The notes beneath the pieces are model-generated. The model saw only the letters and a program-made list of their open reading frames with translations, was not told the DNA's origin and made no database searches. A stretch of 64,000 nt of DNA from Pseudomonas sp. Irchel s3h14. GTDB lineage: Bacteria; Pseudomonadota; Gammaproteobacteria; Pseudomonadales; Pseudomonadaceae. Shown here one piece after another: positions 1,419-54,539 of this stretch; positions within the stretch are counted from its first letter, which is position 1, and the number at the start of each line of letters is the position of its first letter. Both the position numbers and the translations under genes were made by a program. The DNA is taken from NCBI RefSeq assembly GCF_900187425.1, contig NZ_FYDJ01000001.1, forward strand, positions 186,001 through 250,000. Reading direction: 5' to 3'.

Positions 1419-3227
1419 ATGAGCAAACAAATCTACGTTACCGACACAATCCTGCGCGACGCCCACCAATCGCTGCTCGCCACCCGCATGCGCACCGAAG
1501 ACATGCTGCCGATCTGCGACAAGCTCGACAAAGTCGGCTACTGGTCGCTGGAATGCTGGGGCGGCGCGACCTTCGACGCCTGCGTACGCTTTCTGAAAGA
1601 AGACCCGTGGGAGCGTCTGCGCCAGCTGCGCGCGGCGCTGCCTAACACTCGCCTGCAAATGCTTCTGCGTGGCCAGAACCTGCTGGGTTACCGCCACTAC
1701 AGCGACGACGTGGTCAAAGCCTTCGTCGCCAAGGCCGCGGTCAATGGCATCGATGTGTTCCGCATCTTCGACGCCATGAACGACGTGCGTAACCTGCGAG
1801 TCGCCATCGAAGCGGTGAAAGCCGCCGGCAAACACGCTCAAGGCACCATCGCCTACACCACCAGCCCGGTGCACACCATCGAGGCGTTCGTGGCGCAAGC
1901 CAAGCAAATGGAAGCCATGGGTTGCGACTCGGTGGCGATCAAGGACATGGCCGGCCTGCTGACTCCGTACGCCACCGGCGAACTGGTCAAGGCATTGAAA
2001 TCCGAGCAATCGCTGCCAGTGTTCATTCACTCCCACGACACGGCTGGTCTGGCCGCGATGTGCCAAATGAAGGCCATCGAAAACGGTGCCGACCACATCG
2101 ATACCGCGATCTCCAGCTTCGCCTGGGGCACCAGCCACCCGGGCACCGAGTCGATGGTTGCCGCCCTTAAAGGCAGCGAGTTCGACACCGGCCTGAACCT
2201 GGAACTGCTGCAAGAGATCGGTCTGTACTTCTACGCCGTGCGCAAGAAGTACCACCAGTTCGAAAGCGAGTTCACCGCCGTCGACACCCGCGTTCAAGTC
2301 AACCAGGTACCGGGCGGGATGATTTCCAACCTGGCCAACCAGTTGAAAGAGCAGGGCGCCCTGAACCGCATGAGCGAAGTGCTGGCCGAAATCCCGCGCG
2401 TTCGTGAAGACCTCGGCTTCCCGCCGCTGGTGACCCCGACCTCGCAGATCGTCGGCACCCAGGCGTTCTTCAACGTGCTGGCCGGCGAGCGCTACAAGAC
2501 CATCACCAACGAAGTGAAGCTCTACCTGCAGGGCGGCTACGGCAAGGCGCCGGGCACCGTGAACGAAAAACTGCGTCGCCAGGCGATCGGCAGCGAAGAA
2601 GTGATCGACGTGCGTCCGGCCGACCTGCTCAAGCCAGAGATGACCAAACTGCGTGCCGAAATCGGTAACGTGGCCAAGTCTGAAGAAGACGTGCTGACCT
2701 ACGCCATGTTCCCGGACATCGGTCGCAAGTTCCTCGAAGAACGCGCTGCCGGCACCTTGACGCCTGAGGTGCTGCTGCCGATTCCTGAAGCTGGCGGCGT
2801 GACCTCGGCCGGTGGCGAAGGCGTACCGACCGAGTTCGTCATCGACGTCCACGGCGAAACCTACCGCGTCGACATCACCGGTGTCGGCGTCAAGGCTGAA
2901 GGCAAGCGTCACTTCTACCTGTCTATCGACGGCATGCCGGAAGAAGTGGTGTTCGAACCGCTCAACGAATTCGTCAGCGGCGGCAGCAGCAAGCGCAAGC
3001 AAGCCACTGCACCGGGCCACGTCAGCACCACCATGCCGGGCAACATCGTCGACGTGCTGGTCAAGGAAGGCGACACCGTGAAAGCCGGCCAGGCCGTGCT
3101 GATCACCGAAGCGATGAAGATGGAAACCGAAGTCCAATCGGCCATCGCCGGCAAAGTCACCGCCATCCACGTGGCCAAGGGCGATCGGGTGAACCCGGGC
3201 GAAATCCTGATCGAGATCGAAGGCTGA
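1419..3227 (+). CDS. pycB: Pyruvate carboxylase subunit B (oadA-like carboxyltransferase with biotinyl domain)
   Basis: Transfers the carboxyl group from biotin to pyruvate to make oxaloacetate, an anaplerotic step. An HMGL-like carboxyltransferase domain comes first (TDTILRDAHQSLLATR near the N-terminus), then the conserved PYC/OADA domain, then a biotinyl domain. The biotinylation motif EAMKME places the acceptor at Lys567, 35 residues from the end of a 602-residue protein. I chose the ATG at 1419, which has GAGGAA upstream, rather than an earlier in-frame codon at 1404 that overlaps the pycA stop. Many databases name this family oxaloacetate decarboxylase alpha subunit. No beta or gamma decarboxylase subunit is nearby, and pycA is adjacent, so pyruvate carboxylase is the better reading. 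Confidence 0.95.
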   Translation: MSKQIYVTDTILRDAHQSLLATRMRTEDMLPICDKLDKVGYWSLECWGGATFDACVRFLKEDPWERLRQLRAALPNTRLQMLLRGQNLLGYRHYSDDVVKAFVAKAAVNGIDVFRIFDAMNDVRNLRVAIEAVKAAGKHAQGTIAYTTSPVHTIEAFVAQAKQMEAMGCDSVAIKDMAGLLTPYATGELVKALKSEQSLPVFIHSHDTAGLAAMCQMKAIENGADHIDTAISSFAWGTSHPGTESMVAALKGSEFDTGLNLELLQEIGLYFYAVRKKYHQFESEFTAVDTRVQVNQVPGGMISNLANQLKEQGALNRMSEVLAEIPRVREDLGFPPLVTPTSQIVGTQAFFNVLAGERYKTITNEVKLYLQGGYGKAPGTVNEKLRRQAIGSEEVIDVRPADLLKPEMTKLRAEIGNVAKSEEDVLTYAMFPDIGRKFLEERAAGTLTPEVLLPIPEAGGVTSAGGEGVPTEFVIDVHGETYRVDITGVGVKAEGKRHFYLSIDGMPEEVVFEPLNEFVSGGSSKRKQATAPGHVSTTMPGNIVDVLVKEGDTVKAGQAVLITEAMKMETEVQSAIAGKVTAIHVAKGDRVNPGEILIEIEG

Positions 3228-3259
3228 GTTAACAGCCTCGATACACCGTTTTAAACCTC

Positions 3260-3305: not shown

Positions 3306-5549
3306 TTAGAAACTCATTCGCCACTGACCCGTCACGCCGTGGTTTCGGCTGTCGGTGCCGATCTCACCAGTGAGGCCGACGCCCAGGGTGTGTTTTGCTG
3401 ACAATCCAAGGTCCAGCCCTGCATCGACCAGCAGGCTGTCACGATCCAGCGGCGCGCCGGAAACGGTGAAGTTTTTTCCGCCCGTCACCAATCGTTGGCG
3501 GGTATCGCTGTAGACGTCCCCGTAAGTGTGTTTCCAGCCGGCACTGAACCGCGGCGTCAGTTGCATGCCGTTATCCAGCGTGTTGAGCTTCGCCAGCCGC
3601 AGGCCGAATGTGCTGTTCAAATTGTTCTGCGTTTGACCGTGTACCTTCAGTGCCGCTGCGCCACCTTTTTCTGTGTAAGTGTCGCGCTGATAGCGTTGGT
3701 AGCCCAGGCTGGCAAACGGTTCGATGCTGACGTTCGCCCGGCCCAGGTTGTAACCCAATTCCGCAAAGGCCTGCTGGGTGTTGGCATCGTAACGGCCTTC
3801 GGGGCGGTCGCTGAAACCTTTGAAGGCAACCCGGCGTTTAGTGCTGCCGTCGTGGCTGCTATAGGTCGCGCCCAGGCGCAGGGACATTGGTCCGTTTTGA
3901 CGCAGGGCATAAGCTCCCACATGCCAGCTGTCGAGATCGCCGTCGAGTCCGCGGCTGTCCAGGCGCGTTTCGGACTTGCCGCTCATTACCCCGATGCGCC
4001 ATTCCTCATCGATGCCCCAATCAGCTCCCAGTACCAGGCCTTGGGTTGTGTGTTTCAGAGCGTCGTAATCGCGATCCAGCGTCCCACCGTGACCCAATGC
4101 TTGAAGCCAGACTCGGCCATTGTCCTCGCTACCCGCGGCCAGGCGTGGTGCATTGCGCTTGATGGAATTGCTGTAGCTACTGGCGCTGTCCAGCTGACGC
4201 ATGGCCGAGAGCATGGTCGCACTGATTGGGCTGTCACTGTTCAGGGTCGCTTTCGCGAGGTTGGCGTTATTGCCGCCAGCCAGCTGTTCGATGGCAACAG
4301 ATGCCGTTTGTTTGTCAGCGCTGAGCAGGGCCGCGACAGCAGCGTTTGTGGGGCTGGATGCCTTTGGCACTGTGGCGACGGAATGGGTAGCTGGGGGTGG
4401 AGTTGCAGCTGTGACGGGCTGGTCGGTAGTAGTTGTCGGTGTGGAGACCGGAACGGATGTGTCGGTAATTGCAGGTGGATTCGGAGCTTCAGCGACGGAG
4501 GGTGCTTGAGGTATGTCCGTTGACTCTTCAATGCTTTGGGCGACTTCCTTCCCGTTATCCGTGATTGCGACAGCATCCAACGGCACATCGTTACGGACGA
4601 GGATCAGGTCGACACTCTTGTCTTGGTAGTCGAGATTGGGCGTTAAAAAGGCAAGGTTGTTGAGGACTTTCCCAAATTCCCCTTCGACTTTATTGGCAAT
4701 TAGGATGTTTTTTTCGCTGATTAGCGGGTATTCACCCGGTGCTGCAACGATGTTCAGTGTGGCGCCGCCAAGGCTGGCGGTGCCATCGACTATTATCGTT
4801 TCACTTTTGCGGTCGGCATTGACCTCGTAAGTTAGCTCGGCAGTTTTGGAGAGATTCAAGTCACCTTTAACTTTCGGTGCGCCGTGCAAACCGTCGACAG
4901 AAAGCTTTCCGTTTACCTTCAGGGAACCCGTTAAACCGTTGCCCGCGAAAGCACCTTTTTCATGGATAACGACGTCGCCTTCGATAGTTCCCGGGTTGTT
5001 CAGGGTGCCTCCTGATTGCACGGTCGCTCCGCCGCCAATCTTTCCGTGGTTGACAAGCGTTCCTTGGGTCAACGCCCCACCCTGGATATGTCCATTATTT
5101 ATTAGCGTTGCTTTTGGACGTATCAGGACACCGGTATTGAAATCACCGGGACCATTCATGGTCCAAGTACTTCGTTTGAGCTCCAGGCCTTCAAAACGAC
5201 GACTCTCGCCTAACGTGCCACCGCTCGCGGTATCGAGCTGCAGGAAGTTGACACCGTCACCACCGTCAATCAATCCGGAAAGGACTCCGCGGCCAGACAC
5301 AAGGACCAGATCATCTCCATCGCCGAATGTCCGATCAATACCATCCGTTGCTTTGCTGATGGTTGTCTTGTCGGTGGCGGGATCATTTATAAATGCGTCC
5401 AGCGCCGCTATGAGCTGCTCCGGCGTTGCTCCCGAAGGAATGGTGTCATCGATGGATACTTGCTGGGCAAGCGAAATTTCAGCGCAACCCAGCGCAAGCG
5501 CAATGGCCAGCGCCAAGTGTTTTGGTCGGTATTTATGTTGAACGGACAT
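3306..5549 (-). CDS. Type V autotransporter outer-membrane beta-barrel protein
   Basis: A 747-residue classical autotransporter. Residues 1 to about 29 form a signal peptide (basic start, hydrophobic LALAIALALG, then SLAQ). A passenger of roughly 400 residues carries short glycine- and asparagine-rich strands typical of a beta-helix. A Pro/Thr/Val-rich linker (about residues 345-400) precedes a C-terminal barrel of about 270 residues starting near GRVWLQALGHGG. The protein ends in Phe (WRMSF), the usual barrel signature. No protease triad is apparent, so the passenger is probably an adhesin-like or structural domain of unknown ligand. I chose the ATG at 5549 because AGAGG lies just upstream. 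A TTG ten codons earlier lacks a clear ribosome site. The gene converges on pycB. Confidence 0.85.
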   Translation of the reverse strand: MSVQHKYRPKHLALAIALALGCAEISLAQQVSIDDTIPSGATPEQLIAALDAFINDPATDKTTISKATDGIDRTFGDGDDLVLVSGRGVLSGLIDGGDGVNFLQLDTASGGTLGESRRFEGLELKRSTWTMNGPGDFNTGVLIRPKATLINNGHIQGGALTQGTLVNHGKIGGGATVQSGGTLNNPGTIEGDVVIHEKGAFAGNGLTGSLKVNGKLSVDGLHGAPKVKGDLNLSKTAELTYEVNADRKSETIIVDGTASLGGATLNIVAAPGEYPLISEKNILIANKVEGEFGKVLNNLAFLTPNLDYQDKSVDLILVRNDVPLDAVAITDNGKEVAQSIEESTDIPQAPSVAEAPNPPAITDTSVPVSTPTTTTDQPVTAATPPPATHSVATVPKASSPTNAAVAALLSADKQTASVAIEQLAGGNNANLAKATLNSDSPISATMLSAMRQLDSASSYSNSIKRNAPRLAAGSEDNGRVWLQALGHGGTLDRDYDALKHTTQGLVLGADWGIDEEWRIGVMSGKSETRLDSRGLDGDLDSWHVGAYALRQNGPMSLRLGATYSSHDGSTKRRVAFKGFSDRPEGRYDANTQQAFAELGYNLGRANVSIEPFASLGYQRYQRDTYTEKGGAAALKVHGQTQNNLNSTFGLRLAKLNTLDNGMQLTPRFSAGWKHTYGDVYSDTRQRLVTGGKNFTVSGAPLDRDSLLVDAGLDLGLSAKHTLGVGLTGEIGTDSRNHGVTGQWRMSF

Positions 5550-5752
5550 CGAATTCGGCCTCTGTTGATAAGAGGCCAAACTCTAAGAGGGAGGCTATAG
5601 GTGCCGATGTCAGCTGCTTCCGGCGAGCTTGCGGGGGTTCTCAGAAGGTTGTGTAGAAAATTGCCAGCCTCCTGAGGAAGGTTGTTTTTACCCGTTCGGG
5701 CTGACGCTTTTTCTTACAACAAATCGAGACATGGTCGGCTATCGCAAACTCG

Positions 5753-5824: not shown

Positions 5825-5963
5825 TGCATTGTTTTGCGTATTTTCTACGTAAGGTTGAATTAATCTGCATTTTATTGCGTATGGAGACGATGCTTGGTGA
5901 TGATAAATGCACTATATTGCAGTTATGGTGCGGGCTAGCTTCTGAGAGATGCATTTAAATGCA
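5825..5963 (+). promoter_or_regulatory. Four phased operator-like sites upstream of hipA
   Basis: Four copies of TGCA-N6-TGCR occur at 5825-5838, 5866-5879, 5908-5921 and 5950-5963. Their starts are 41, 42 and 42 bp apart, close to four helical turns. The last is a perfect palindrome (TGCATTTAAATGCA) ending one base before the hipA ribosome site (AGGTG, 5963-5967). The first two copies also match outside the core, 18 of 20 bases (5821-5840 and 5862-5881). This is the expected layout for cooperative autorepression by the Xre protein encoded after hipA. The protein that binds is an inference. Confidence 0.65.
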
Positions 5964-5975
5964 GGTGATGACGAT

Positions 5976-7328
5976 ATGTACGACCTGACTTTACAGATCT
6001 TTACCTCCGGGAATTGGCACGACGCCATGGTCTTAAGCTTCGACAGCCCTGAAAAAGGTTTCGAAAGTCGATGCAACTTTGGCTACGAAACCCCCTATCT
6101 CGTCGAAAACATTGAGGGTATTGGAACACCCTTTGCCAAAGCCGTAAGTGCTAGGTTTCCTTTGGACTGGGAGGGTAAGCGATCCAACGTGCCAGCATTT
6201 CTGCATGACATCGCACCTGCCGGTGCCGCCAAGAAATTTCTGCTGACACACATAGGTCGTGACAAGCCTGCTGACGTCAGTGCCGACCTTTATTTACTGG
6301 CCAGAAGCACTCCGGCACCGATTGGCAATATGCGCATAAAGGAATCCGCCGAGGCAGTAGATCAGCGCAAGCCTATAGGGTTTAAACGCCAGGACGTCAT
6401 TAGTCGGGATAACCGGTTTCTCGAATATGCCTATGAGCAGGGCGCTGCAATTGGGGGAGCAACGGGGGCAGGTGGCGAGGCGCCAAAACTCTTGTTAGCT
6501 CAGGGTAAGGGCACAGATCTATACCCCGATGCAGTATTGGACGATGCAGACGTTACCCAGCACTGGTTCGTGAAGTTCTCTCGCAATAAAGGAACCCGGA
6601 ACGATCAGGACATTCTCAGAAGCGAGTACCACTACTACAAGGCACTACAAAAACTAGGCATCGAAACGGTGGCAGAACAGGGCTTGGCCTTGGAGGAGGG
6701 GACCAAACCTAGCTTGTGGATGCAGCGTTTTGATCGGCAAGTGACCCCTCAGGGTGTCGAGCGTTTTGCCGTGGAGTCGATCTACTCTCTGGCGCAAATC
6801 ACCACGCCCGGTAGCCCGATGGACCACATGGAAGTTATCCGGCTGCTTGCGGGGCTATGGCGTGATGCGGGGCAGGCGGACCAAATCCCGAATCTCGTTG
6901 CTGACTATCTGCGTCGGGATCTGCTCAATAAAATCCTCGGCAACTCAGATAACCACGGGCGCAATACCGCAATCATCCGCGATACGGCCTCGTTTCGCCT
7001 GGCACCGATCTATGACTTGGCGCCAATGGTGATGGACGACGAAGGCGTCACAAGAACCACCAAGTGGCCGAAAGAGTTGGAGAGGGCTGGGGATGTAAAT
7101 TGGCGTGGTGTGTGCCAGGCATTGGCCGACATCGCTGATCCGAATGATCCGCTGGCAGCGCTAATTGATTTGCCGGGTTCTTTTGAACGCCTGCGTGAGG
7201 ATGCCAAACACTTGTTGGCACTCCCGGACATTCTGACTGACAACGGATTGCCCGACGCCACAATGAATCACCCGCGAATTGCATTGAAAAATCTGGAGCA
7301 GCGTTTGAAAGAGTGGGACCTGAAATGA
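5976..7328 (+). CDS. HipA-family serine/threonine kinase, putative toxin
   Basis: HipA-type kinases are toxins that phosphorylate translation factors such as GltX. This 450-residue protein has a HipA-like N-terminal region and a glycine-rich loop GGATGAGGEAPK at 160-171. The kinase core follows: GNSDNHGRN with catalytic Asp325, and IYDLAP with metal-binding Asp347. That is the same relative spacing as in E. coli HipA. I chose the ATG at 5976 because AGGTG precedes it; an upstream ATG at 5949 lies inside the operator array. The regulator gene follows with an ATGA overlap. This toxin-first order is the reverse of E. coli hipBA. The loop has Thr163 but no serine, so any autophosphorylation would differ from E. 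coli Ser150. Toxicity is inferred from family only. Confidence 0.85.
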   Translation: MYDLTLQIFTSGNWHDAMVLSFDSPEKGFESRCNFGYETPYLVENIEGIGTPFAKAVSARFPLDWEGKRSNVPAFLHDIAPAGAAKKFLLTHIGRDKPADVSADLYLLARSTPAPIGNMRIKESAEAVDQRKPIGFKRQDVISRDNRFLEYAYEQGAAIGGATGAGGEAPKLLLAQGKGTDLYPDAVLDDADVTQHWFVKFSRNKGTRNDQDILRSEYHYYKALQKLGIETVAEQGLALEEGTKPSLWMQRFDRQVTPQGVERFAVESIYSLAQITTPGSPMDHMEVIRLLAGLWRDAGQADQIPNLVADYLRRDLLNKILGNSDNHGRNTAIIRDTASFRLAPIYDLAPMVMDDEGVTRTTKWPKELERAGDVNWRGVCQALADIADPNDPLAALIDLPGSFERLREDAKHLLALPDILTDNGLPDATMNHPRIALKNLEQRLKEWDLK

Positions 7329-7603
7329 GCATGACGGTTGCCGAGCGCACATTGCTCATAGAAAGCATTCAAGAGGCGCTGGCCCAAGGCACTCTTGAGA
7401 TTGGTGAGGCAGTCCGTCGCTTGCGGGTGGAAGTCACAGGCCTGCACCAGACCCAGTTTGCAAAGATGTGCAAAGTCTCGGTGCGCACGCTGGTGCATAT
7501 CGAACATGGAGAAGGCAATCAGACGCTGAAATCGTTGAATTCGGTGTTCCGACCGTTTGGATTGAAGATGGGCGTAGTTCGGATTCGGCGCGATTTCAGC
7601 TGA
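7325..7603 (+). CDS. Xre-family HTH antitoxin/regulator paired with HipA
   Basis: A 92-residue DNA-binding protein. The helix-turn-helix lies in about residues 44-75 (QTQFAKMCKVSVRTLVHIE). This is the expected HipB role: neutralising HipA and repressing the operon. The ATG at 7325 overlaps the hipA stop as ATGA, so the two are probably translationally coupled. A GTG four codons earlier is possible but less likely. The four phased TGCA-N6-TGCR sites upstream of hipA are its likely operators. It could be only a repressor rather than a true antitoxin; sequence alone does not separate these. Confidence 0.8.
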   Translation: MSMTVAERTLLIESIQEALAQGTLEIGEAVRRLRVEVTGLHQTQFAKMCKVSVRTLVHIEHGEGNQTLKSLNSVFRPFGLKMGVVRIRRDFS

Positions 7604-7660: not shown

Positions 7661-7787
7661 CAAGTATTGAATTCGTCACTTCATTCGGTGCTTGGTGTAG
7701 GACCGCTCTGAGATAAGGAGACCGGGTTTTACATCGAATGAGGGCTCGCCTATAGTTCGCCCGTCGCCGACGAATCGGTGATCGATC

Positions 7788-7957
7788 TTAGCCGGTCGAA
7801 CAAAGAGTGCACGGGCGCCCCCTGAAAGGAGGCGCTTTTTGCTGCCTATGTTTTTATGCCTATGGCGGCTGTGCGTGGGACACCTTCGGGTGTGCCGGAG
7901 TTCTCTTTGTCCGGTCGGCTAACCCGCGTACAGCTGTCACCTAAATTTGCTTAGCCG
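7788..7957 (+). ncRNA. Conserved structured leader of a small DUF gene (copy 1)
   Basis: This 5' leader shares a strong core with the leader at 49120-49282. Shared parts are GGCTGTGCGT, a TTCG-capped hairpin (ACACC/GGTGT, 7880-7893), and GCGTACAGCTG. GCTGTGCG (7868-7875) can pair with CGTACAGC (7927-7934) around the hairpin, with one G-U pair. TTAGCCG occurs at 7788-7794 and 7951-7957, and its exact complement CGGCTAA lies between them at 7916-7922. The middle strand could pair with either copy. In copy 2 all three strands carry the matching C-to-T/G-to-A change. The start codon of the downstream gene lies 38 bases after the second TTAGCCG. The ligand or signal is unknown, and I do not recognise a named RNA family. 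Confidence 0.6.
7815..7840 (+). terminator. Terminator-like hairpin inside the leader
   Basis: GCGCC (7815-7819) pairs with GGCGC (7831-7835). An inner CCT/AGG closes on a GAA loop, and five T follow. It lies between the first TTAGCCG and the conserved core, so it could stop transcripts early. In the second leader the same position holds a 6-bp CAGGTA/TACCTG hairpin without a T-run. Confidence 0.55.
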
Positions 7958-7994
7958 CGAACGGTGGGAGCTCTTCACTCAGAGAGAAATCCCC

Positions 7995-8264
7995 ATGTCC
8001 AAATATCACCCGCTCCAAGGCAACTTCAGCGTCGGCCCGACGTTGTACATCGACACCGAAGCCCGTACTTCCGACCTTCTTGAAACTGCCACCCATCGAA
8101 TCAAAGCCGCACGAAATCTGCTCAACAGCGTCACATGTCTGTGCGTGAAGGATGCGGAAGGTCATGACTTGGAACACTTTGCCAACGCTGCGCATATGTT
8201 GATCCAGGATGGCTGTGACGCCTTGGATGCGTTGGGCTGGAAGCTGGATAAAACCACACGTTAA
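7995..8264 (+). CDS. Small DUF3077/DUF6124-like protein of unknown function
   Basis: An 89-residue cytoplasmic protein with no signal peptide or membrane segment. It is mostly helical in appearance (DLLETATHRIKAARNLLNSV and a C-terminal LIQDGCDALDALGWKL). It resembles the small Pseudomonas proteins annotated DUF3077 or DUF6124, as does the 131-residue protein at 48686-49081. The two genes share the same leader, which supports common regulation. I chose the ATG at 7995, since the open frame upstream runs through the leader. The function is unknown; the family assignment is from memory of its look, not from a search. Confidence 0.65.
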   Translation: MSKYHPLQGNFSVGPTLYIDTEARTSDLLETATHRIKAARNLLNSVTCLCVKDAEGHDLEHFANAAHMLIQDGCDALDALGWKLDKTTR

Positions 8265-48128: not shown

Positions 48129-48320
48129 ATACCGGACGTTCTGTCGGAATCACCCCTCTTTTGCCCTTACAAAGGTCGCGCCGAGACTGGCGCGGCTCTT
48201 CGCTGCGTGCCATCCTCACTCCCGTCTGCCGCAGAGTAGAGCATCTGCGGCGCTTTGGGCGCTGTTCCAACGAGAACAGCACGGACATAACAACAAAAAA
48301 CCGTCAAAGGGGCTTCACTA

Positions 48321-48596
48321 ATGCGTAAACCAGAACTCGCCGCTGCAATTGCTGAAAAAGCAGACCTCACCAAAGAGCAGGCCAACCGCGTTCTCAACGC
48401 CGTTCTCGAAGAAATCACCGGCGCTCTGCACCGCAAGGACAGCGTTACGCTGGTGGGCTTCGGTACCTTCCTGCAACGCCACCGCGGTGCCCGCACCGGC
48501 AAAAACCCGCAAACCGGTGAGCCCGTCAAAATCAAGGCCAGCAACACTGTTGCGTTCAAGCCAGGCAAATCGTTGAAAGACAGCGTTAATCCGTAA
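48321..48596 (+). CDS. HU-family DNA-binding protein
   Basis: A 91-residue histone-like protein that bends DNA. The HU pattern KADLTKEQANRVLNAVLEEI is at the start. The arm signature GFGTFLQRHRGARTGKNPQTG follows (parts: GFGTFLQRHR and GKNPQTG). It is the distinct HU paralogue found after the rubredoxin reductase in Pseudomonas. The gene has its own terminator and a 190-base upstream gap. Confidence 0.92.
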   Translation: MRKPELAAAIAEKADLTKEQANRVLNAVLEEITGALHRKDSVTLVGFGTFLQRHRGARTGKNPQTGEPVKIKASNTVAFKPGKSLKDSVNP

Positions 48597-48685: not shown

Positions 48686-49081
48686 TTAGGTGACGCGGGT
48701 TTGTTGCTTGGCGAAAATCGCCGCCATCTCGGGTTCATCCAGATGATCCAGTGTTCGCTCCACCAACAAATGCACGCCGTCAGCCATGCGGCTGAGCGCC
48801 AGGGCTACGGAGCGGCGGGAACCGTCCACATCGTCGGCGAGGTTGGCGGCGATGGCGCTGATGGACAGCAAATCTTCCGAGGCATTGGCGAGAAGGGTTT
48901 CAGGGTTGATGCCCGGGCAGACGCTGAAGAGCTGGCCGTTGCGTTTTGGTGGTTTGGGGTCGGCTGGCGGGAAGTGATGGTCGAGGGCGCGCTCGGCGGC
49001 TTCGCTGAGTTTGTTTGAATCGGGGCTTTCGTAGGGAGAGACCGGATCGGTGTCGGGTGGGTTGGGTGTGACCTTGAACAT
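48686..49081 (-). CDS. Small DUF3077/DUF6124-like protein of unknown function
   Basis: A 131-residue cytoplasmic protein. The start MFKVTPNPPDTDPVSPYESPDSNKL is proline-rich. FSVCPGINPETLLANASEDL (only this part quoted) and a helical ADGVHLLVERTLDHL follow. It belongs with the family of small Pseudomonas proteins annotated DUF3077 or DUF6124, by recollection. I chose the ATG at 49081, with AAGGAA upstream. The leader (49120-49282) is shared with the gene at 7995. Function is unknown. Confidence 0.75.
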   Translation of the reverse strand: MFKVTPNPPDTDPVSPYESPDSNKLSEAAERALDHHFPPADPKPPKRNGQLFSVCPGINPETLLANASEDLLSISAIAANLADDVDGSRRSVALALSRMADGVHLLVERTLDHLDEPEMAAIFAKQQTRVT

Positions 49082-49119
49082 GATCTTCAATTCCTTGAAT
49101 GATGCTGACAACACTTCGC

Positions 49120-49282
49120 CGACTAAACGAAGGGGTGGCAGCTGTACGCAGGTTAGTCGGACCGGGGAATTGAAGAAGCCGGCGCACCCGAAGGTGCCCT
49201 ACGCACAGCCACCATCAAATGCAGGTAGGAAATACCTGTCTGACAGAAGCTTGTGCAACTTCAATTACCAGCGAGCGACTAA
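49120..49282 (-). ncRNA. Conserved structured leader of a small DUF gene (copy 2)
   Basis: Minus-strand leader matching copy 1 at 7788-7957. Core parts are GGCTGTGCGTAGG, the TTCG hairpin GCACC/GGTGC, GCCGG, CCGGTC, and TGCGTACAGCTG. TTAGTCG occurs first at 49282-49276 and again at 49126-49120; CGACTAA lies between at 49159-49153. Gap lengths are 116 and 26, against 121 and 28 in copy 1. Where copy 1 has C in TTAGCCG, this copy has T, and the partner base is A instead of G. A 6-bp CAGGTA/TACCTG hairpin occupies the place of the terminator in copy 1. Confidence 0.6.
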
Positions 49283-54014: not shown

Positions 54015-54539
54015 ATGTCCGGCAAACCCGCAGCACGCGTCACCGACCCCACCGCTTGCCCGCTCCCCGGTCATGGCACCAATCCGATCGCCGCCGGTTC
54101 CGGCGACGTGTTCTTCGACGGCCTCGCGGCCGCCCGCCAAGGCGATGCCTCGGCGTGTGGTGGTGCGATGTCGGGCGGGTTGGCGACGACGGTTTTGATT
54201 AACGGGAAACCGGCTGCGACGGTGGATTCCGTCGGGACTCATGGCAACAAGGTTACGGCCGGGTCCGGGACGGTGATTATCGGGAATTCTCATTCGGCGG
54301 TGCCGTTTGTGGCGCCGTTGCCGGTGGAGATTCAGTGGCCGTTTAATGAGCATTTTGTGATCAATTGCCAAGACACCGGGAAGCCGTTGGCTGGGGTTGA
54401 GTACACGCTTAAAACTGCCTCGGGAAAGATCATCACTGGTGTCACAGGCAGTGATGGTAAAACGCAAAAAATCTTTTCATCGGCGGCAGAAGAGTTCGAG
54501 CTAGTCATACAACCACAGTCCAAAGTGGTGCTCGCTTAA
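54015..54539 (+). CDS. PAAR-domain protein with C-terminal extension
   Basis: A 174-residue T6SS tip protein. The PAAR part (about 1-95) has ARVTDPTACPLPGHGTNPIA, LAAARQGDASACGGAMSGG, TVLINGKPAATVDS and GSGTVIIGNSHSAV. The last 75 residues (INCQDTGKPLAGVEYTLKT) look like a small beta domain of the transthyretin/CarboxypepD-reg kind, an effector-binding or adaptor extension. Codon use shifts from GC-rich to plainer around base 54150. The ribosome site is AAGGAGA. The candidate effector follows 63 bases later. Confidence 0.88.
   Translation: MSGKPAARVTDPTACPLPGHGTNPIAAGSGDVFFDGLAAARQGDASACGGAMSGGLATTVLINGKPAATVDSVGTHGNKVTAGSGTVIIGNSHSAVPFVAPLPVEIQWPFNEHFVINCQDTGKPLAGVEYTLKTASGKIITGVTGSDGKTQKIFSSAAEEFELVIQPQSKVVLA

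Follow-up and report, generated by a model that had tools for sequence, protein, structure and literature searches.

Two leaders of the phage P1-type C4 antisense RNA family upstream of small genes in Pseudomonas sp. Irchel s3h14

The DNA studied was a stretch of 64,000 nt (the window, forward strand) covering positions 186,001–250,000 of contig NZ_FYDJ01000001.1 of Pseudomonas sp. Irchel s3h14 (GCF_900187425.1), whose genome has a size of 6.7 Mb in 46 contigs. Two leaders in the window, one before the gene at 7995 (copy 1) and one before the gene at 48686–49081 on the opposite strand (copy 2), had been reported in a first-pass annotation to share a core. Both were surrounded by non-phage chromosomal genes, and their neighbours were HipA-like, HTH, ABC-transporter, HU-like, rubredoxin-reductase-like, and T6SS genes. 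Directly 5' of copy 1, a HipA-like gene (PF07804) was followed by a small HTH gene resembling Y4mF-type antitoxins (5949–7603, +); the two are likely a toxin-antitoxin pair with the toxin first and the antitoxin second. The window also contained a large autotransporter gene (PF03797, 7.6e-60; 3306–5579, −) and, in the Rfam scan, a match to Pseudomonas sRNA P10 (RF01668, 91.6 bits; 54038–54109, +).

Rfam scanning of the 64-kb window identified the shared core as the C4 antisense RNA (RF01695), with 77.0 bits (E 2.6e-13) for copy 1 and 74.1 bits (E 1.3e-12) for copy 2; at these E-values chance is ruled out. Both matches covered model positions 1–87 of 87, and the gathering score of the family is 45 bits. 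The reported common core was therefore real and corresponded to the C4 scaffold at 7858–7944 and 49131–49219, a named RNA that the annotation had not recognised. The upstream flanks resembled a second family, c4-a1b1 (RF03163), with 34.6 bits for copy 1 (E 3.3e-7 over 401 bases, 1.3e-6 over the genome) and 29.0 bits for copy 2 (E 6.7e-5 over the genome). Neither flank reached the RF03163 gathering score of 46.7 bits, so the two window boxes are homologous in layout and are not filed as members; 12 a1b1 boxes of the same genome stood at or above that score. No Rfam riboswitch matched either leader, C4 being the sole gathering-level match there, and at E ≤ 0.1 the region 7700–8100 gave C4, c4-a1b1, and nothing else.

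The three strands that had been noted, TTAGYCG, CGRCTAA, and TTAGYCG, correspond to a1, a', and a2, which are annotated in phage P1 at similar spacing. A second trio, b1/b'/b2, with b2 at the Shine-Dalgarno region, had been missed. The features of the two leaders were as follows.

Copy 1:
7750–7802 (+), c4-a1b1-like target region (RF03163, 34.6 bits, under 46.7)
7751–7756 (+), TATAGT, likely -10 box (the same hexamer stands at the -10 annotated for promoter P1c4 in the P1 leader)
7788–7794 (+), a1, TTAGCCG
7800–7807 (+), b1, ACAAAGAG
7814–7840 (+), terminator-like hairpin and T run, between b1 and C4
7858–7944 (+), C4 antisense RNA (RF01695, 77.0 bits, 1–87 of 87)
7902–7910 (+), b', TCTCTTTGT, loop of the second C4 hairpin
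7916–7922 (+), a', CGGCTAA, unpaired C4 junction strand
7951–7957 (+), a2, TTAGCCG
7980–7988 (+), b2, CAGAGAGAA, ribosome-binding region; one G-U in the pairing with b'
7995–8264 (+), gene for an 89-aa protein, no Pfam/NCBIfam family, predicted two-helix hairpin

Copy 2:
49276–49282 (−), a1, TTAGTCG
49259–49266 (−), b1, AATTGAAG
49131–49219 (−), C4 antisense RNA (RF01695, 74.1 bits, 1–87 of 87)
49168–49174 (−), b' core, TTCAATT
49153–49159 (−), a', CGACTAA
49120–49126 (−), a2, TTAGTCG
49084–49092 (−), b2, AATTGAAGA, 2 bases 5' of the ATG at 49079–49081
48686–49081 (−), gene for a 131-aa DUF6124 protein (PF19619, 84.4 bits)

The repeats were found where they had been described, with gaps of 121 and 28 bases in copy 1 and of 116 and 26 bases in copy 2. 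A terminator placed between the first flank and the core of copy 1 was recovered as the hairpin at 7814–7840; the scan that found it detected none in copy 2. In both window copies, a' and b' were complementary to a2 and b2 ahead of the next gene, with b2 at the ribosome-binding site, and the target copy a1/b1 was present 5' of C4. The description of the guarded genes as two small DUF genes held for 48686–49081 and failed for the gene at 7995, whose protein had no Pfam/NCBIfam family at E 0.01. The copy 1 protein was modelled as a two-helix hairpin (pLDDT 79.7), with no PDB structure match at E ≤ 0.001 and no PDB sequence match better than E 0.15; the model of the DUF6124 protein was weaker (pLDDT 72.3). 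Common ancestry of the copy 1 and DUF6124 protein families was not found by hhalign (probability 0.2%).

In the P1 record AF234172, a1 is annotated at 48255–48261, b1 at 48269–48276, C4 at 48343–48419, a2 at 48423–48429, and b2 at 48452–48459, with icd starting from 48470 and ant1 from 48688. P1 a1 and a2 read TTGACAG, and a' in C4 reads CTGTCAA. The distance between the starts of a1 and a2 was 168 in P1 and 163 and 156 in the window copies; the same tool gave P1 68.8 bits for C4 and 51 for c4-a1b1. The window copies resembled the P1 C4 of immI (c4, icd, ant1/2) in the scaffold, in the positions of a' and b', in a1b1 upstream and a2b2 downstream, in b2 at the ribosome-binding site, and in the gene directly after it; the order was a1, b1, C4 (b' then a'), a2, b2, start codon. 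Unlike immI, the window cassettes stand among chromosomal genes and carry a DUF6124 gene or an unnamed small protein gene instead of icd-ant; neither copy has icd and ant downstream or lies within a phage. In P1, C4 is described as repressing ant, with a' and b' binding the target and b' lying over the ribosome-binding site (PMC8198154, PMC5320573), and the 5' end of C4 in P1/P7 is made by RNase P, as cited by PMC5320573. Both c4 antisense RNA, for Proteobacteria and phages, and c4-a1b1 are tabled in PMC2864571. The leaders are a real feature of a known RNA family, and both the scaffold and the mechanism that we infer are those of P1 C4.

The genome of strain s3h14 contained 24 C4 matches, 23 of them above the gathering score. 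The genes that followed encoded DUF6124 (12), DUF3077 (5), Bro-N (2), and small proteins without a Pfam family (5: L003, L007, L010, L013, and L023, L013 itself lying outside the Pfam scan). The two loci with Bro-N (antirepressor-like) cargo were L001 and L024 (5.3e-6 and 1.3e-7); L001 also matched anti-repressor PHROGs (best 5.1e-7). Between the C4 leader and the DUF3077 gene of L002 and L006 lay a short ORF of 52–53 aa, an order that resembles icd before ant in P1. A conserved peptide of ~52 aa (MHALNPSK.RAAAHRAMALAALHANSSLATRL...) followed the C4 leader in L002, L006, L061, L062, and others. Among 23 distinct DUF6124/DUF3077 loci of this genome, 17 had C4, 3 had an a1b1-like box only, and 3 had neither.

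Pairing was analyzed over 114 loci, namely the 24 own copies, 30 from the genus survey (one genome each), and 60 further; the 90 foreign loci were top-scoring matches. Segment boundaries for a' and b' came from a script, except in L001, L014, and L024, where they were set by hand. By the ORF rule, a downstream open reading frame was present in 109 of the 114. The a' strand matched its own a2 in full (7/7 bases) in 99 loci, with 14 more at 6/7 and one at 4/7. Against its own a1 it scored 7/7 in 100 loci, 6/7 in 11, 5/7 in 2, and 4/7 in 1. Non-self comparisons with a different word (n = 12010) reached 7/7 in 0.2% (a2) and 0.8% (a1). By position, Watson-Crick pairs filled 781 of 798 cells for a'-a2 and 780 of 798 for a'-a1, the register being the best match and controlled for by the non-self figures. 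Distinct a' words numbered 38 and distinct loops 75 in these loci, and all four Watson-Crick pair types occurred at six of the seven a positions, in a'-a2 and a'-a1 alike. The longest b' run with the own downstream region (G-U allowed) averaged 10.1, compared with 6.65 with the regions of others (0 of 10000 permutations). Within the 24 own copies, self pairing exceeded non-self pairing for a' and for b', each tested against both the upstream and the downstream region (0 of 20000 permutations in every case); mean RNA duplex energies (self/non-self) in these four comparisons were −13.25/−9.54, −10.37/−7.64, −12.16/−9.44, and −12.91/−8.58 kcal/mol.

Selection for pairing among the three strands, which had been proposed from one variable base, was thereby borne out over a far wider range of covariation. 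The search for further homologues that had been suggested found them, with the TTAGYCG and CGRCTAA bases covarying, and the pairing over the 114 loci also supports the idea that the middle strand can pair with either flank, one of which lies near the start codon. Family membership, the pairing sets, their covariation, and the place before the start codon can be read directly from the loci. A candidate -10 hexamer, TATAxT or one of three similar hexamers, was present in only 29 of the 114 loci; therefore, the -10 box is not uniform.

Based on these features, both leaders are very probably P1-type C4 cassettes, in which C4, cut from the leader of the gene itself, would pair a' and b' with a2 and b2 and block translation of the next gene. 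One transcript would carry a1-b1, the C4 RNA, a2-b2, and then the gene. Release of C4 from this transcript, a step carried out in P1 by RNase P, would leave a' and b' single-stranded; a' would pair with a2, and b' would pair with b2, whose sequence overlaps the ribosome-binding site. The next gene would thereby be kept silent, and since each copy has its own a'/b' word, it would act mainly on its own gene. The target of each Pseudomonas C4 is likely the linked gene in the same transcript. Transcription, processing, repression, and action of C4 in trans on other transcripts of its own locus are what we infer.

The degree to which the addresses are private was assessed in the own genome. All 24 copies had different b' loops; the a' words numbered about 18, an approximate count because segments were script-cut and three loci were set by hand. 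L005 and L011 were 94% identical in the coding region, 90% in the scaffold, and 45% in the loop; the means over 276 own pairs were 61%, 75%, and 51%, respectively. When a had to match at 6/7 or more and b in a run of 8 or more, the self pairs that passed were 18 of 24, compared with 9 of 552 cross pairs. By summed duplex energies, 9 of the 24 targets had their own C4 as the best partner, and 17 of the 24 C4 RNAs had their own target as theirs; RNA duplex energies alone fail to single out the cognate pair. Private action of C4 on the linked gene is, on these two counts, likely rather than proven. For P1 and P7, a 4-nt difference is given as enough against cross-reaction in PMC5320573, citing Citron and Schuster 1990.

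In the genus survey, 231 of 249 genomes had a C4 match, above the gathering score in 230, and 117 had at least 16 candidates; per-genome counts are lower bounds, with 16 candidates scored per genome here and 14 in the phylum survey. A looser search of 40 Pseudomonas genomes, which were hand-chosen and mostly single-contig, with poor and empty ones included on purpose, gave C4 counts from 0 (3 genomes) to 55, with a median of 24. Summed over the 40 genomes there were 873 C4, 671 DUF6124, and 161 DUF3077, and the 3 genomes with zero C4 also had no DUF6124 and no DUF3077. C4 and DUF6124 counts were correlated (Spearman 0.955); the genomes are related, and the correlation therefore does not represent 40 independent points. 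In the phylum sample, C4 matched in 42 of 299 genomes, own genus counted in. At 20 loci, mostly from other genera or families, an exact complement of at least 7 bases to a'/b' was found upstream in 19 and downstream in 14 (shuffled 4.3 and 2.4), and the cargo differed among these loci.

The DUF6124 protein had 1 match in 50,697 phage records and 0 in 72,556 plasmids. These counts suggested a purely chromosomal family, an idea that was dropped on finding 55 relatives in IMG/VR. Inspected by eye, 46 of the 55 had a C4 leader directly upstream, 8 had none, and 1 was cut off. In 43 of the 46 viral cassettes, which were parsed by script, a' matched the own a2 at 7/7 in all 43, and the b' run reached at least 8 in 29; the Rfam scan confirmed C4 in 5 of 5 cassettes checked. 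Tail genes adjoined two of them, a tape measure gene (phrog_794, 1.2e-54) at L340 and a tail protein gene (phrog_166, 1.5e-14) at L341. Judged by these sequences, the C4 cassette also occurs in prophages. On five IMG/VR contigs, two DUF6124 cassettes lay in opposite orientation about 17–19 kb apart (L336/L340, L338/L360, L343/L372, L347/L368, and L351/L369); each pair may mark both ends of a single phage or tailocin block.

Leaders with an a1b1-like region and without C4 were also observed before genes of the same families (L152–L181 and L186, 18 loci; L049, L050, and L054–L056 in the own genome). For the copy 1 protein, 52 named Pseudomonas loci were inspected by eye, of which 34 had C4 and 18 the a1b1-like leader only. 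The Rfam scan found no C4 in the 13 of these 18 leaders that were scanned, and the TTAGCC loop was kept in all 18. With the exact a' pattern, one of the 17 genomes that carry these leaders had a matching a', as did the own genome. With one mismatch allowed, 16 of 17 genomes gave matches, mostly other a' words; matches keeping GGCTAACC were C4 in G556 and G557 and were not C4 in G544, G547, G549, G551, G554, and G555. In total, a C4 with a matching a' was present in only 2 of 17 genomes. At L152, two matches to the TwoAYGGAY RNA (RF01731, 51.9 bits each; 3182–3246 and 3659–3723, −) lay near the copy 1-type gene.

The leader had been suggested to act as a switch. A ligand switch is unlikely because the strand in the middle is part of an antisense RNA already described in phage P1, and a ligand riboswitch was rejected, as Rfam names the core and the loops vary where a riboswitch core would stay constant. 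In another form, a'b' would pair with a1b1 or a2b2 of the same transcript and alter translation, or termination at 7814–7840, without any free C4. This part of the suggestion agreed with the lowest-energy fold of copy 2 (−90.1 kcal/mol, z −4.3), in which a1b1 was paired with a'b', and with the 48 of 114 loci that have a terminator-like hairpin in the a1-to-C4 interval, compared with a mean of 1.4 after shuffling; there is therefore room for a cis step before processing. However, the lowest-energy fold of copy 1 (−96.1 kcal/mol, z −2.7) formed the C4 scaffold; in it a' was unpaired, b' was paired at its last base only, and hairpin loops contained a1 and a2. The scan found no terminator-like hairpin in 66 of the 114 loci, copy 2 included. 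The family is an antisense RNA in P1, and the C4-like RNAs of Acinetobacter are described as processed from longer transcripts (PMC5320573), so that regulation purely in cis is improbable. Decaying repeats left by prophages, with no present function, would fit the sharing of cassettes with prophages, and also the 3 of 23 own DUF6124/DUF3077 loci that lack both C4 and a1b1; near-perfect compensating changes in two partner strands and the open reading frames downstream in 109 of 114 loci make this explanation highly implausible.

Two further alternatives place the main targets elsewhere. C4 RNAs could mainly govern other loci, including the a1b1 leaders without C4: several such own boxes stood 36 to 112 bases 5' of small same-family genes, L049 a1 paired well with L023 a' and L055 a1 with L014 a', and the TTAGCC loop was kept in the 18 of 52 named loci without C4. 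Such a network is unlikely, as, among the pairs tabulated, no own C4 fitted both a and b of one C4-less own leader, own-genome cross pairs were rare (9/552), and a matching a' in only 2 of 17 genomes (G556 and G557) left trans control of the C4-less leaders unsupported. Chromosomal C4 RNAs could also silence C4-controlled genes of incoming phages with the same address, an idea raised for Acinetobacter in PMC5320573 and consistent with the occurrence of the cassette in prophages and with viral cassette L340, whose address is almost that of window copy 2. However, own C4 RNAs fitted 7 of 43 viral cassettes, no more than shuffled loops did (mean 7.8); exclusion by a shared address was unsupported, and we give this role little probability. 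The preferred reading is that of P1-type cassettes acting on their own linked genes.

Many C4-like RNAs in one genome have been described in Acinetobacter baumannii AB5075, where 21 make up the Group 1 sRNAs, with higher coverage from a GGW site and with targets that are only hypothesised (Weiss et al. 2016, PMC5320573). The Pseudomonas set is similar in number (24 here) and in its variable a'. In Pseudomonas, unlike AB5075, each C4 directly precedes a gene with a fitting a2/b2; expression has been demonstrated in AB5075, and the Pseudomonas copies are sequence predictions. The open-licence literature searched, mostly by title and abstract, contained no description of C4 control of DUF6124 or DUF3077 genes in Pseudomonas. 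The RNA type is already known; what may be new is how many such cassettes Pseudomonas carries, how private they are, and that they are linked to DUF6124/DUF3077.

A broader picture can be offered tentatively, with doubt outweighing confidence. Small genes locked by antisense RNA may form one large family common to Pseudomonas chromosomes and prophages. Each C4 would make up, with its target, a private key of two parts (a' and b'); the b' key would diversify faster than the gene it guards, and tens of near-identical locks would work side by side in a cell without cross-talk. The cargo may be small helical proteins that replace, or descend beside, the phage antirepressor. The Pseudomonas cassettes offer a direct target candidate for the question left open in Acinetobacter (PMC5320573), and their pairing code is readable from the sequence and swappable. 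If the reading is true, a single genus would supply natural antisense-target pairs by the hundreds, all built to one design and possibly insulated from one another; they could be used to ask how many differing bases prevent cross-talk, and the uncharacterised DUF6124 and DUF3077 families would be tied to a phage-type silencing system.
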